Below, in pieces: positions 27,101 to 30,814 of a stretch of 35,094 bases of DNA (positions within the stretch are counted from its first letter, which is position 1; every line of letters begins with the position of its first letter). The notes below the pieces were generated by a model, which searched no databases, had not been told where the DNA came from, and saw only the letters and a program-made list of their open reading frames with translations. Location: the NCBI GenBank assembly GCA_035686305.1, contig DASRZP010000100.1:1-35094 (forward strand), given 5' to 3'. Origin of the DNA: Thermodesulfovibrionales bacterium (GTDB taxonomy: Bacteria > Nitrospirota > Thermodesulfovibrionia > Thermodesulfovibrionales > UBA9159). A program made the translations under genes and the position numbers.

Positions 27101-27377
27101 ATCGCTGCCTGATGAGGTCGGGAGACTTCTCGACATCATGAGACTGAAGATCATGGCAAGAGGAATGTCAGTCACGAACCTATCCGAGACCGACGGGAAG
27201 GTGAGATTGGTATTTTCCGACGAAACGCCTGTTCTGCCGGAGAAGATATTTGGTCTCCAGAAGACCTTCGGCGGTCTTCGGGTCCACCGTGACGGTTTTG
27301 AGATCTCCTTGAAAGGCGGCTCGAAAGACCGCAGGAACATGACGGTCTTGTTTGACGTGATGAAGGGATTGACGTGA
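24141..27377 (+). CDS. mfd: transcription-repair coupling factor Mfd
   Basis: The product is about 1,078 residues from ATG 24141; GTG 24072 and ATG 24192 are alternative starts, and none has a strong ribosome binding site. Mfd removes RNA polymerase stalled at lesions and recruits UvrA. Order: UvrB-like N-terminal module, RNAP-interacting domain (GDFVVHKDHGIGRF), RecG-like helicase with Walker A GDVGYGKT (about 568), DEEH (about 670-673), SMTATPIPRTLQ, and helicase C motifs (STNIIGAGIDIPTANT, QLRGRVGRSN), then the C-terminal TRCF domain. A Pro-rich segment near residue 265 is encoded by a palindrome (24932-24972) and may be an insertion. The C-terminus overlaps the next frame by 4 nt. Confidence 0.95.
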   Translation: MRAKSFKSALPTAEHRKMEFLRDFFRRVPSDVSRVYNLPGSSVALFLCLLKKPFIAVEQTEEVGRTLSEDMRFFRALMDEQQPGVFFLPDPDGAESLGRRAEVIHKMGEGDSVVTSVDGISAPVWPKKELAKAAFSLIKGQEMDRDYVGERLRSLGYRRVSIVVEKGEYCIKGWIIDIFPPTADDPVRIEFFGDEVESIKTFDLDSQKSISQTDNLLLLPVIGPTSMSALTSGVSAVVYLVDLPAGQRGPAAKYLYPEPSPFASPLIPLLPEGREEGLLRPVLLSRFPFQGDGSDAGLLPIGGHGIYPDERKSLSDFPPALERLMRENRVLIVSPSKGQAERVKDILLEGGMIAPVIDLEEAGDYEGDIAIVPGRLSSGLFIPGMLILTEREIFGERPSFRPIRRSKVSKLLTTIDDISPGDFVVHKDHGIGRFIDIQRQAAEDYESDLVVLEYLGGDRLYIPLYNIERIKKYSAEEGVLPHLDRLGGKSWQRTKARVKKAVKEMAEQLLRLYAEREIAQGFAFSPDTELHREFYGFFPYEETPDQVKVIEEIGRDMESERPMERLLCGDVGYGKTEVAMRAAFKAVYDGKQVAVLVPTTILCEQHFLTFTTRFSAFPVTIDYLSRFKTKREQDLTLKALAKGETDIIIGTHGLLKKGVCFENLGLLIIDEEHRFGVKQKERVKELKKGIDVLSMTATPIPRTLQMALSGIRGMSLIETPPEERLAVRSIVSVFDEDLIKEAVERELRRGGQVLMVHNVILDIEKVADRLRRMLPKTRIDIAHGQMPEKRLEEVMHSFLKGDLDVLLSTNIIGAGIDIPTANTIIVDRAEKMGLADLYQLRGRVGRSNVRAYAYFLIPGEDLMTDESKKRLQAMRDMSFLGAGFRLAMKDMEIRGAGNLLGPQQSGHVHAVGFDLYVEMLEKAVAELKGAKVKEEPEPSINLKLSAFIPEGYIEDLTLRLSIYRRIAQAKDIDAVDMIESEMEDRFGSLPDEVGRLLDIMRLKIMARGMSVTNLSETDGKVRLVFSDETPVLPEKIFGLQKTFGGLRVHRDGFEISLKGGSKDRRNMTVLFDVMKGLT
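24932..24972. repeat. palindrome inside the mfd coding region
   Basis: ACCCCTC (24932-24938) pairs with GAGGGGT (24966-24972), with further pairing between CCCCT and AGGG inside. It is translated in frame as a Pro/Leu/Glu/Gly-rich stretch (ASPLIPLLPEGREEGLL) that looks foreign to Mfd and falls in a variable linker. Its sequence resembles the palindrome in cbiQ. It may be a small repeat inserted in frame. Confidence 0.4.
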
Positions 27378-27427
27378 TCAGTCCGCGATTTCCCTTTACT
27401 TCTCCGGAGCTTTCTGATAATTTTACA

Positions 27428-28165
27428 ATGGATATGAAGAGGTCCAAAGGAATCAGCATGGCATTGCAGGCCATCATTATCATCCTGACGCTCATTACGG
27501 GTTGCGCAAGCATGAGCAGTGATGAGAAGATAAAACGGTCCACTGCCCATTATCAGTTAGGGATATCATATCTCAATGACAACAATGTCCAGCCGGCCTA
27601 TGTAGAACTCCAGAAGGCATTGGACCTCAATCCTCATGATAAGGAGGTCCTGAACGCCCTCGGTGTTATCCATCTCCTGAAGTTTGAAGACTATCCCAAG
27701 GCAGTAGAATATTTCAAAAGGGCCTTGAATGAGGACAAGAACTTTTCTGAGGCCTCAAATAATCTCGGCTTCGCATACGAACGGGAGGAAAGGTTCCAGG
27801 AGGCTATCGAATCATACAAGGATGCCCTCTCAAACCCTTTTTACAAGAATGCGCAAAAGGCCTTCAACAATCTCGGCAGGGCCTACTACAGGATCAGGAA
27901 GTACGATGAAGCCGCAGACGCCTATAAGGAATCGATAAGGAGGTCCTCTGATTTTCCTCTTCCCTATTATGGCCTTGCCCTCTCCTACAACGCCCTCGGA
28001 AGGTATGATGACGCTGCGGCAGCCCTTAAGATGGCGATTGGGCTTGATCCCGACTATAAGGGGGATACGGAGAAGTTTCGCAAAGAGATAAGGGAGAGAA
28101 GGCTGTTCGCAAAAGGAAATGAAGAAAGGGACATAGATGACCTCATTGAAATTTTGAATTACTGA
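27428..28165 (+). CDS. TPR-repeat lipoprotein (PilF/PilW-like)
   Basis: The product is about 245 residues from ATG 27428, chosen because it gives a normal lipoprotein signal (basic start, hydrophobic helix, LITGC lipobox). A GTG at 27374, which overlaps the mfd stop and has AAGGGA upstream, would add an 18-residue non-signal extension. Five to six tetratricopeptide repeats follow, for example AYVELQKALDLNPHDKEVLNALG, YPKAVEYFKRALN and YDEAADAYKESIR. The layout matches PilF/PilW outer-membrane lipoproteins that assist type IV pilus secretin assembly, but no pilus genes are nearby, so the role is inferred from family only. It is probably transcribed with mfd. Confidence 0.85.
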   Translation: MDMKRSKGISMALQAIIIILTLITGCASMSSDEKIKRSTAHYQLGISYLNDNNVQPAYVELQKALDLNPHDKEVLNALGVIHLLKFEDYPKAVEYFKRALNEDKNFSEASNNLGFAYEREERFQEAIESYKDALSNPFYKNAQKAFNNLGRAYYRIRKYDEAADAYKESIRRSSDFPLPYYGLALSYNALGRYDDAAAALKMAIGLDPDYKGDTEKFRKEIRERRLFAKGNEERDIDDLIEILNY

Positions 28166-28399: not shown

Positions 28400-30250
28400 A
28401 TGACAAAAAGGATTGTCTCTATCTTTATGGCACTGTTTCTTGTATCATGCGGAAATTCCAAGATTTCCGGTGTCACTACAGAGACCCGAAGTGAGACCAG
28501 CGTTTCAAAACAGGCAGTCCTGCCCCCGGTAACGATGGAGTCGGTCCTGTCCCAGGCTGAGAAGGGAAGATACAAAGAGGGTGAACTCCTCGTCAAGTTC
28601 AAGTCCGGCGTATCGTCTCGATCTGCCTTGAGTGCCCATCGGTCATCCGGTGCGACTGTCGTGAGGAGATACAGCATCGTCGAGAACCTTGAGCACGTGA
28701 AACTTCCGAAGGGGCTCTCGGTGAAAGAAGCGATCAGCCGTTACATGGCCGATCCTAGTGTGGAATATGCAGAGCCGAACTATACAAAATGTCTCAGCTC
28801 TACCGTTCCTAATGACCTTTATTTTAATCCGCAGCAGTGGGCCCTCAATAATACCGGCACCTACGCCAACGGTACAGCAGGCGCGGATATCAAGATGCCT
28901 ATCTCGTGGGACATTACAACGGGAAACGGGAATCTCATTATCGCTGTCCTGGACACAGGAATAGACTACGGCCATCCCGATTTAGTGAATAACATATGGA
29001 CGAATCCCGGAGAGACATGCTCGGACGGCATAGATCACGATGGAAACGGCTTTGTCAATGACTGCAAGGGATGGGATTTTGTGAATGGCGACAATGACCC
29101 GATAGATGACAATGGACACGGGACGCATGTGGCGGGGATCATCGGCGCCGTCGGCAATAATGGGACAGGCATTAGCGGCGTAATGTGGAATGTGAAGCTC
29201 ATGCCACTGAAGATCTTCGATGCAACGGGTCAGGTGGAAGATACCCAATGTGGAGGGCCATCAGGTTTTATAGCCGACGAAGTTGCAGCCATCGAGTATT
29301 CTACTGCGAACGGTGCAAAGGTTATCAATGCCAGTTTTGGCGGGCCTGATTTCTGTAATACTGAGCTCTCTGCCATAGCATCGGCGAATGCTGCAGGTGT
29401 CCTTTTTGTTGCTTCTTCCGGTAATAGCGGCACAAACAACGACCTTGCGCCGGAATACCCTGCCAGTTACAGCCTTCCCAATATCATCTCTGTCAGTGCC
29501 ACTGACCAGAACGACAGGAGGGCCTCCTTTGCTAATTTCGGTCTACAATCCGTTCATGTCGCAGCGCCCGGTGTCTATATTCTAAGTACGATCACTCCGG
29601 GTTTAACCTTTTCCCTCTGCACTGGTGCACCCTTCCCCGGATATGATATCTGCAGCGGAACCTCCATGGCCGCTCCCCATGTCTCTGGGCTTGCCGGGCT
29701 CCTCTTGAGTTACTATACGAATTTTACCTATATCCAGGCACGTTCAACGATCCTCAGGTATGTCGATGTTCTCCCTGACCTCACAGGATGGGTCGAGACA
29801 GGGGGAAGGATCAACGCTTATAAGGCGCTTTCGTCGTTGTTGACGCCGACAAATCTTCAGGCAACAGGAACAACTCCATCGAGCATATCGTTGTCCTGGA
29901 CAGACAATGCCACTGGTGAGGACGGATACAAGGTAGAAAGAAAAGGTGCGGACGGAACGTTCGTCCAGATAGCTGTGCTCGGACCGAATTCCACGACTTT
30001 TACTGATTCCGGTCTCACTCCTTCCACCGGCTATACCTACCGGGTTAGGGCATACAACACGATCCCTGCGGACTCCTCGTACTCGAATGAGACATCCGCC
30101 ACTACGCTGTCTGCATCAGCCGACCAAGGAGGCGGAGGAGGAGGGGGCTGTTCCATTGGTGCGAGACAGAACATGCCGACGACGATGGCCGATGCCGCTC
30201 TCATCCTGTTACCCCTGGTATACGTCGCACTTATGAGGCGGAAGAGATAA
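28400..30250 (+). CDS. subtilisin-like (S8) lipoprotein protease with a Cys-type C-terminal sorting tail
   Basis: The product is 616 residues. A short lipoprotein signal ends in the lipobox LVSC (Cys17). An inhibitor-like propeptide segment covers about 58-130 (GELLVKFKSG to EYAEPNY). The S8 domain (about 145-475) has the full catalytic set: D185 in AVLDTGID, H240 in NGHGTHVAG, N342 in SSGNSG and S422 in SGTSMAAPH. A fibronectin type III domain follows (about 483-570). The end is seven Gly (577-583), Cys584, a polar stretch, a membrane helix (about 596-612) and RRKR. This layout is that of MYXO-, Synerg- or JDVT-CTERM sorting tails processed by glutamic-type intramembrane proteases, one of which is encoded directly downstream. 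Having both an N-terminal lipobox and this tail is unusual. Confidence 0.9.
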   Translation: MTKRIVSIFMALFLVSCGNSKISGVTTETRSETSVSKQAVLPPVTMESVLSQAEKGRYKEGELLVKFKSGVSSRSALSAHRSSGATVVRRYSIVENLEHVKLPKGLSVKEAISRYMADPSVEYAEPNYTKCLSSTVPNDLYFNPQQWALNNTGTYANGTAGADIKMPISWDITTGNGNLIIAVLDTGIDYGHPDLVNNIWTNPGETCSDGIDHDGNGFVNDCKGWDFVNGDNDPIDDNGHGTHVAGIIGAVGNNGTGISGVMWNVKLMPLKIFDATGQVEDTQCGGPSGFIADEVAAIEYSTANGAKVINASFGGPDFCNTELSAIASANAAGVLFVASSGNSGTNNDLAPEYPASYSLPNIISVSATDQNDRRASFANFGLQSVHVAAPGVYILSTITPGLTFSLCTGAPFPGYDICSGTSMAAPHVSGLAGLLLSYYTNFTYIQARSTILRYVDVLPDLTGWVETGGRINAYKALSSLLTPTNLQATGTTPSSISLSWTDNATGEDGYKVERKGADGTFVQIAVLGPNSTTFTDSGLTPSTGYTYRVRAYNTIPADSSYSNETSATTLSASADQGGGGGGGCSIGARQNMPTTMADAALILLPLVYVALMRRKR

Positions 30251-30271
30251 TCGAGAGACAACACCTATAGG

Positions 30272-30814
30272 CTGAAGATCAGAAAGGCAATCGCTACATA
30301 TCCGGCAGTATTCTGCCTGGTGTTTCTGTATCATGCCTTTCCGTTTTCGGCCTTGAGATACCTGATTCCCCTTGTTCTCGTCATGATCCCTTACGTGCTG
30401 CGGGAAAGGGTGAATCTTAGGTTTGACACGAAGGATATCGTTGCCGGTGTCGCTGTTTCTGCCATAGTCCTCCTGCCGTTCTGGTTCCTCCTTTCTCAAC
30501 CCGGAAGATCTCTTCCCTCTCCCTCCGTGAGCACCATGCTTTTCCAGGTCCTTGGCGCTGCCTTTCCTGAGGAGGTTTATTTCAGGGGTTTCCTTCAGGA
30601 GCAGGTCGGGAACAATGTCAGAGGGCTTTTGGTTGTGAGCCTCCTTTTTTCTATCATGCACCTGCCCCAGCTTATCTTCTATGGCGACCCTTACGCCATC
30701 TTGACCTTTTTCCCTTCCCTTGTCATGGGTTTTCTCTACATGTGGACATCCAATGTCATTCCATCAACCATTTTCCACGCTGCTGCAAATACTCTGTTCG
30801 TCGGCCTTTTATGA
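30272..30814 (+). CDS. CPBP-family (glutamic-type) intramembrane protease, MrtJ-like
   Basis: The conserved part is clear: FPEEVYFRGFLQE (EExxxR), IMHLPQL and FHAAANT, the three catalytic motifs of the CAAX/Abi intramembrane protease fold, embedded in about five to six helices. The first ATG/GTG/TTG in frame is GTG 30320, which would cut the first helix (YPAVFCLVFLYHAF). The homology-like reading begins at CTG 30272 (LKIRKAIATYPA), so I set the start there with reserve. The frame is the same as that of the S8 protease and only a TAA (30248-30250) and seven codons separate them. Close relatives are remembered as dedicated proteases of JDVT/MYXO-CTERM sorting, and the preceding gene has such a tail. 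The gene overlaps the upstream ATG option of aroC. Confidence 0.82.
   Translation: MKIRKAIATYPAVFCLVFLYHAFPFSALRYLIPLVLVMIPYVLRERVNLRFDTKDIVAGVAVSAIVLLPFWFLLSQPGRSLPSPSVSTMLFQVLGAAFPEEVYFRGFLQEQVGNNVRGLLVVSLLFSIMHLPQLIFYGDPYAILTFFPSLVMGFLYMWTSNVIPSTIFHAAANTLFVGLL

Follow-up and report, generated by a model that had tools for sequence, protein, structure and literature searches.

In Myxococcus xanthus, the CPBP-family protease MrtX cleaves MYXO-CTERM tails, whose cysteines are needed, and has been shown experimentally to be required for the cleavage and surface anchoring of TraA (PMC11980579). A second system of this kind, JDVT-CTERM with its protease MrtJ, has been described in beta- and gammaproteobacteria (PMC11980579). 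The locus described here lies in a 35,094-nucleotide stretch of a Thermodesulfovibrionales genome (Nitrospirota; contig DASRZP010000100.1), hereafter the window. Like MYXO-CTERM/MrtX, it combines a tail made of a Cys signature, a transmembrane (TM) helix and an Arg-rich end with a CPBP-family protease and a type II secretion system (T2SS) in the same cell. It differs in its tail signature, in the number of tails (35 in M. xanthus versus one in the window's genome) and in the lipobox that the subtilase substrates carry as well. With JDVT-CTERM/MrtJ it shares the layout of two genes conserved as a pair, one for a substrate and the other for a CPBP protein, as well as the nearest, weak tail match, but it belongs to Nitrospirota rather than to beta- or gammaproteobacteria.

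The substrate candidate is an S8 subtilase composed, in order, of a type II signal peptide, a Fervidolysin-type prodomain, the S8 domain, an fn3 domain, a Gly-rich linker and a Cys-TM-Arg tail (Table 1). The S8 domain (PF00082) covers residues 178–453 with intact motifs around D185, H240 and S422, and the fn3 domain (PF00041) spans residues 482–555. The protein ends in GGGGGGGC(584)-TM-RRKR, that is, seven glycines (G577–G583), C584, a hydrophobic helix and R613-R-K-R616 directly before the stop codon. NalP and SphB1 are also lipidated subtilases, S8 proteases made as N-terminal lipoproteins, as is predicted here; they are, however, beta-barrel autotransporters without a Cys-TM tail or a CPBP partner. 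Just upstream (window positions 27374–28165), a TPR protein resembles Tgl/PilW pilus lipoproteins, at scores below cut-offs (114 bits versus 225).

Table 1. Positions of the subtilase and CPBP features in the window and of the prodomain-bearing secretin of the same genome
Feature	Position	Strand	Evidence
S8 subtilase pre-pro-protein, 616 aa	28400..30250	+	sequence, domain models
N-terminal lipobox LVSC (L-V-S-C17), Gly at +2	28439..28450	+	sequence
Prodomain PF22148 (Fervidolysin-type), residues 48-127	28541..28780	+	64.4 bits vs cut-off 21
Candidate C-terminal sorting tail GGGGGGGCSIGARQNMPTTMADAALILLPLVYVALMRRKR; Cys584 codon at 30149	30128..30247	+	sequence, tail profile, aligned tails
CPBP/Rce1-like glutamic intramembrane protease, 180 aa, probable CTG start	30272..30814	+	PF02517, E=7e-19
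Catalytic codons, CPBP gene	EExxxR from 30569; His137 at 30659; His176 at 30776	+	sequence
Own GspD secretin with C-terminal PF22148 prodomain	L265:7520-9736, contig C50	-	55 bits vs cut-off 21

The adjoining gene encodes a protein whose family model, EExxxR, H and HxxxN residues and predicted fold all place it among the CPBP/Rce1-like proteins (PF02517), and it is the only PF02517 protein of the genome. Open reading frames and domain matches bear out the earlier note, which had proposed an S8 protease with a GGGC-TM-RR tail beside a CPBP gene; the catalytic motifs it had named are likewise intact (E107-E108..R112, H137, H176..N180), and E107, E108, R112, H137, H176 and N180 are invariant in an alignment of 36 CPBP homologs. 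The reading frame has no stop codon between 30251 and its end at 30814, and its first standard start is a GTG at 30320. Because an in-frame CTG at 30272 is kept in most close homologs, the residues encoded upstream of the GTG are conserved (Y17 nearly invariantly) and a start at the GTG would cut off a first helix that the AlphaFold2 model shows with confidence, the coding sequence probably runs from the CTG (30272–30814), and the GTG is probably not the true start. The Shine–Dalgarno-like sequence upstream of the CTG is only weak. In the window and at four other loci (L037, L042, L203 and L038), the CPBP frame continues in the same frame after the stop codon of the protease gene.

The Rce1 fold of the CPBP protein is a confident prediction. 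The AlphaFold2 model has a mean pLDDT of 95.8, and VIA-align places it closest to SpdC (6u0o; Z 15.0) and MmRce1 (4cad; Z 13.7, with 178 residues aligned), the next row scoring Z 5.7. Foldseek alone gave a best E of 0.04 at a probability of 1.00, with no match at E ≤ 0.001. The predicted fold and the catalytic residues are those of Rce1. That enzyme acts in the cytosol, where it cleaves prenylated CAAX ends, whereas the tail cysteine of the window subtilase is predicted to be periplasmic.

None of the NCBIfam CTERM or Mrt models reaches its cut-off with the window tail or CPBP protein. The best-scoring Mrt model is MrtS, the protease of the Synerg-CTERM system (NF040589; 69.5 bits, E=3.7e-19, cut-off 130), and the CPBP protein also scores with Mrt_core, the myxosortase family model (NF040914; 50.3 bits, E=2e-13, cut-off 100), MrtC (51.4 bits, cut-off 195), MrtJ (NF033192; 43.8 bits, cut-off 75) and MrtX (30.9 bits, cut-off 180); the models used for MYXO-CTERM and for MrtX or MrtC were TIGR03901 and NF040593 or NF040594. 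All 19 first-round CPBP homologs match Mrt_core at E ≤ 1e-3 (best 7e-20), with the Mrt models at similar levels. The only CTERM model to match the window tail is JDVT-CTERM (NF033191; 14.7 bits, cut-off 27), which weakly matches 10 of the 13 first-round tails (best E 0.0099). MYXO-CTERM matches three of the 13 weakly (best E 0.13) and leaves the window tail unmatched, and the Synerg-CTERM model gives hardly any match (E 2.2 at best among the 13). The homologs and tails of relatives likewise stay under every curated cut-off. Since the Mrt and CTERM models are matched weakly and below cut-offs, we treat the pair as a branch of its own within the myxosortase kind. Of the comparison with MYXO- and JDVT-CTERM made previously, the pairing of a substrate with a sorting protease has stood, being strongly supported by bimodal orthology, co-occurrence, linkage with orientation changes and several substrates in relatives; membership of either system has not, as the cut-offs are not reached. 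Judged from sequence, the window pair is related to the myxosortase sorting systems but undescribed, being neither JDVT nor MYXO, and the two genes likely form a dedicated, myxosortase-like sorting pair on a branch outside the existing models.

The tail has the consensus GGGC-S-I-G, followed by a proline in the TM segment and an RR end. Among 42 aligned tails, 36 have Ser directly after the Cys, 38 have Ile or Val at +2 and 32 have Pro at +21, and the last ten residues include two or more Arg or Lys; this alignment was anchored on a Cys preceded by Gly or Ser, which makes the constancy of the Cys and of Gly(-1) partly circular. In an alignment of 23 tails made without the Cys anchor (A3), G7, C8 and P29 are invariant. 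A short Cys signature, a TM helix, an Arg-rich end and a co-occurring dedicated protease together mark the tail as a Cys-type C-terminal sorting signal, a working kind.

Across 296 Nitrospirota genomes, the score of the CPBP ortholog is bimodal, with 32 genomes at 148 bits or more and all others at 45 or less. At a tail profile threshold of E ≤ 0.001, 27 genomes matched; 23 have both tail and protease, nine the protease only, four the tail only and 260 neither (Fisher p=4e-23, uncorrected for phylogeny). Every genome with a strong tail has the ortholog (19/19), and among 61 relatives the 16 with a confident tail all fall within the 19 with the ortholog. Three of the protease-only genomes (G199, G244 and G277) show a variant GGGC tail beside the ortholog, and in G023, G033, G060, G183, G252 and G295 the ortholog is present with no tail detected next to it or over threshold. 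The tail-only genomes hold weak variants (three GGGCGVID and one short GGGCSV); like the six genomes with an ortholog but no detected tail, they count against the pairing. In each of seven families (f1, f2, f3, f7, f10, f12 and f13), some members have tail and protease together and others lack the two, which makes a single event an unlikely origin of the association, and its recurrence across the order and over the 296 genomes indicates that the tail and the adjoining CPBP gene are not together by chance.

Another Nitrospirota family carries a variant tail, GGGGGGCGVIDSNKN-TM-KRA (L219, L220 and L221 in G062, G088 and G101), and no ortholog of the window CPBP was found in these three genomes. 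Sequence searches of named genomes turned up records foremost from Nitrospirota, followed by Dadabacteria, Aquificota and Myxococcota among others. Dadabacteria genomes with related CPBP proteins also bear GGGC tails, and one of them (G311; L281, L290 and L299) has 13 tail-profile matches, several clustered on one contig; it is perhaps a many-substrate version of the system.

In most genomes with the ortholog, the neighbour of the CPBP gene is a tailed subtilase, co-directional in the closest relatives and convergent in seven genomes (G015, G036, G045, G054, G175, G234 and G287). The gene aroC often flanks CPBP on the opposite side, so the adjacency is partly inherited synteny, and adjacency alone was discounted as proof of pairing. 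Tail and CPBP are nonetheless both kept on different contigs in six genomes (G011, G047, G195, G242, G247 and G266): the subtilase remains beside aroC in G195 with CPBP elsewhere, and CPBP remains beside aroC in G047 and G266 with the subtilases elsewhere. The two are retained together in the genome even when physically apart.

Further tails, which the earlier note had expected a genome search to find, did not appear in the window's own genome, which holds one tail and one CPBP protein. Only the window tail, out of 27 GGGC-coding places inspected by profile and DNA pattern, a search that could miss tails with fewer than three glycines before the Cys, is followed by a TM segment and a basic end. 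The single tail counts against the sorting idea but does not refute it, since about a dozen relatives have at least two tailed proteins per genome, non-subtilases among them, and a Dadabacteria genome has its 13 matches. Most tailed proteins of relatives are subtilases. Three of these (L205:8831-11569, L211:6371-9064 and L233:1919-4594) have a metallo-beta-lactamase-like domain (PF12706/PF13483) inserted within S8, and L206, L209, L213 and L214 encode tailed Temptin_C-like proteins with ordinary type I signal peptides.

Contig C50 of the window's genome bears a gsp cluster that comprises gspC, D, E, F and G together with additional genes of pseudopilin type. In two relatives (G036 and G015), the gene of a tailed subtilase is directly followed, on its own strand, by gspC-gspD-gspE-gspF; GspC and GspD were identified there by Pfam and TIGR02517, and gspE and gspF were named by sequence and order. 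The second prodomain match in the window's genome, which at first seemed to be a protease paralog, is the C-terminus of that genome's GspD, and this domain is 48% identical to the prodomain of the window protease over the aligned stretch. A C-terminal prodomain-like domain is present in the GspD of G004, G006, G011, G012, G015, G029, G036 and G277, weakly in G008, and was not seen in that of G018; loci besides L265 are L266, L267, L269, L272, L274 and L278. Most GspD secretins examined carry the subtilase-type prodomain, two genomes without the tail system included, and our literature search found no paper on such a fusion. A strict coupling to the tail system was rejected, as G004 and G008 have the prodomain without CPBP or tail and G018 shows the reverse. 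The T2SS is probably the export route of the tailed subtilase, supported by the adjoining gspC-gspD genes in two relatives and by the prodomain on most GspDs, although this prodomain is not confined to the tail system.

Architecture, conservation, co-occurrence, linkage, the multiple substrates of relatives and the gsp cluster are observed in sequence and by comparison. From them we infer tail cleavage and its site, lipidation of either cysteine, prodomain removal, passage through the T2SS and surface location. The subtilase would be exported by Sec until its C-terminal helix halts in the inner membrane, leaving RRKR on the inside and GGGC584 facing the periplasm. Cys584 would probably be lipidated, by Lgt or another acyltransferase, before the tail is cleaved, on the helix side of this residue, by the CPBP protease encoded next door, and the cut would leave the subtilase held on its C-terminal lipid. 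Cys17 would be lipidated as well, but that lipid would sit on the propeptide and tether the zymogen; once autoprocessing near residues 128–140 had removed the prodomain, the mature enzyme would depend on its C-terminal anchor. The T2SS would then carry the anchored subtilase to the outer surface. The CPBP protease very probably trims the tail, so that the subtilase would be kept there.

Subtilase prodomains are normally removed during maturation, and nearly every subtilase substrate whose N-terminus is complete has a lipobox-like cysteine ahead of this domain. Because the lipobox precedes a removable domain, the propeptide should keep the N-terminal lipid, which would leave the C-terminal anchor to hold the mature enzyme. 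It had been suggested previously that the protein could be lipidated at both ends or at one only; the lipobox is conserved in subtilase substrates, but the position of the prodomain makes the N-terminal lipid likely to serve the zymogen only. That both lipids stay and tether the mature protease at either terminus is, in our view, unlikely: the lipobox-like cysteine and the GGGC tail are both conserved across the subtilase group, but the former precedes the PF22148 domain that subtilases normally cut off, and those tailed proteins that lack a prodomain have type I signal peptides in place of the lipobox. Slightly less doubtful, though still speculative, is a two-ended lipid relay, in which the zymogen would be held by the propeptide's N-terminal lipid, handed to the lipid on the cysteine exposed by CPBP and docked at the T2SS through the prodomain copy fused to GspD, which would serve as inhibitor or receptor of the protease in transit.

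Other readings concern the tail itself. It might be a plain C-terminal membrane anchor beside a CPBP protein with another job, such as Abi-type immunity or general membrane proteolysis. CPBP proteins do have varied roles, the aroC synteny is inherited and processing of the window tail is predicted from its sequence. Strong tails nevertheless occur only in genomes that have the ortholog, a simple anchor has no need of a fixed GGGC, an intramembrane Pro and an Arg cluster, and the association survives inversion and separation, which together make this reading improbable. A sortase-like transpeptidation, in which CPBP itself would attach the cleaved C-terminus to a lipid or sugar and Cys584 would serve for recognition alone, appears less probable still: Rce1-type enzymes are hydrolases, and the Cys does not vary among the aligned tails, in line with a residue that is modified. 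Joining of this kind has been suggested for exosortases, archaeosortases and rhombosortase (PMC11980579). Cleavage by another sorting enzyme, such as the rhombosortase of GlyGly-CTERM tails, is highly improbable. The Gly-rich stretch before the TM segment and the basic end recall GlyGly-CTERM in outline, but the tail tracks CPBP; rhombosortase was rejected as the processor, as TIGR03902 matches nothing in the window's genome and, among the 61 genomes searched, stays below cut-off in every one that has the tail.

With the likely sorting pair, the range of Cys-dependent C-terminal sorting by CPBP proteases comes to include Nitrospirota and probably Dadabacteria. As a compact pair of one substrate and one enzyme it suits biochemistry, and a 180-residue enzyme with a defined tail would help to test which enzyme modifies the invariant Cys. 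Why a single protein should carry two lipid signals finds a testable explanation in the combination of lipobox and prodomain, and the fusion of a prodomain to GspD suggests that subtilases are specifically linked to the T2SS.
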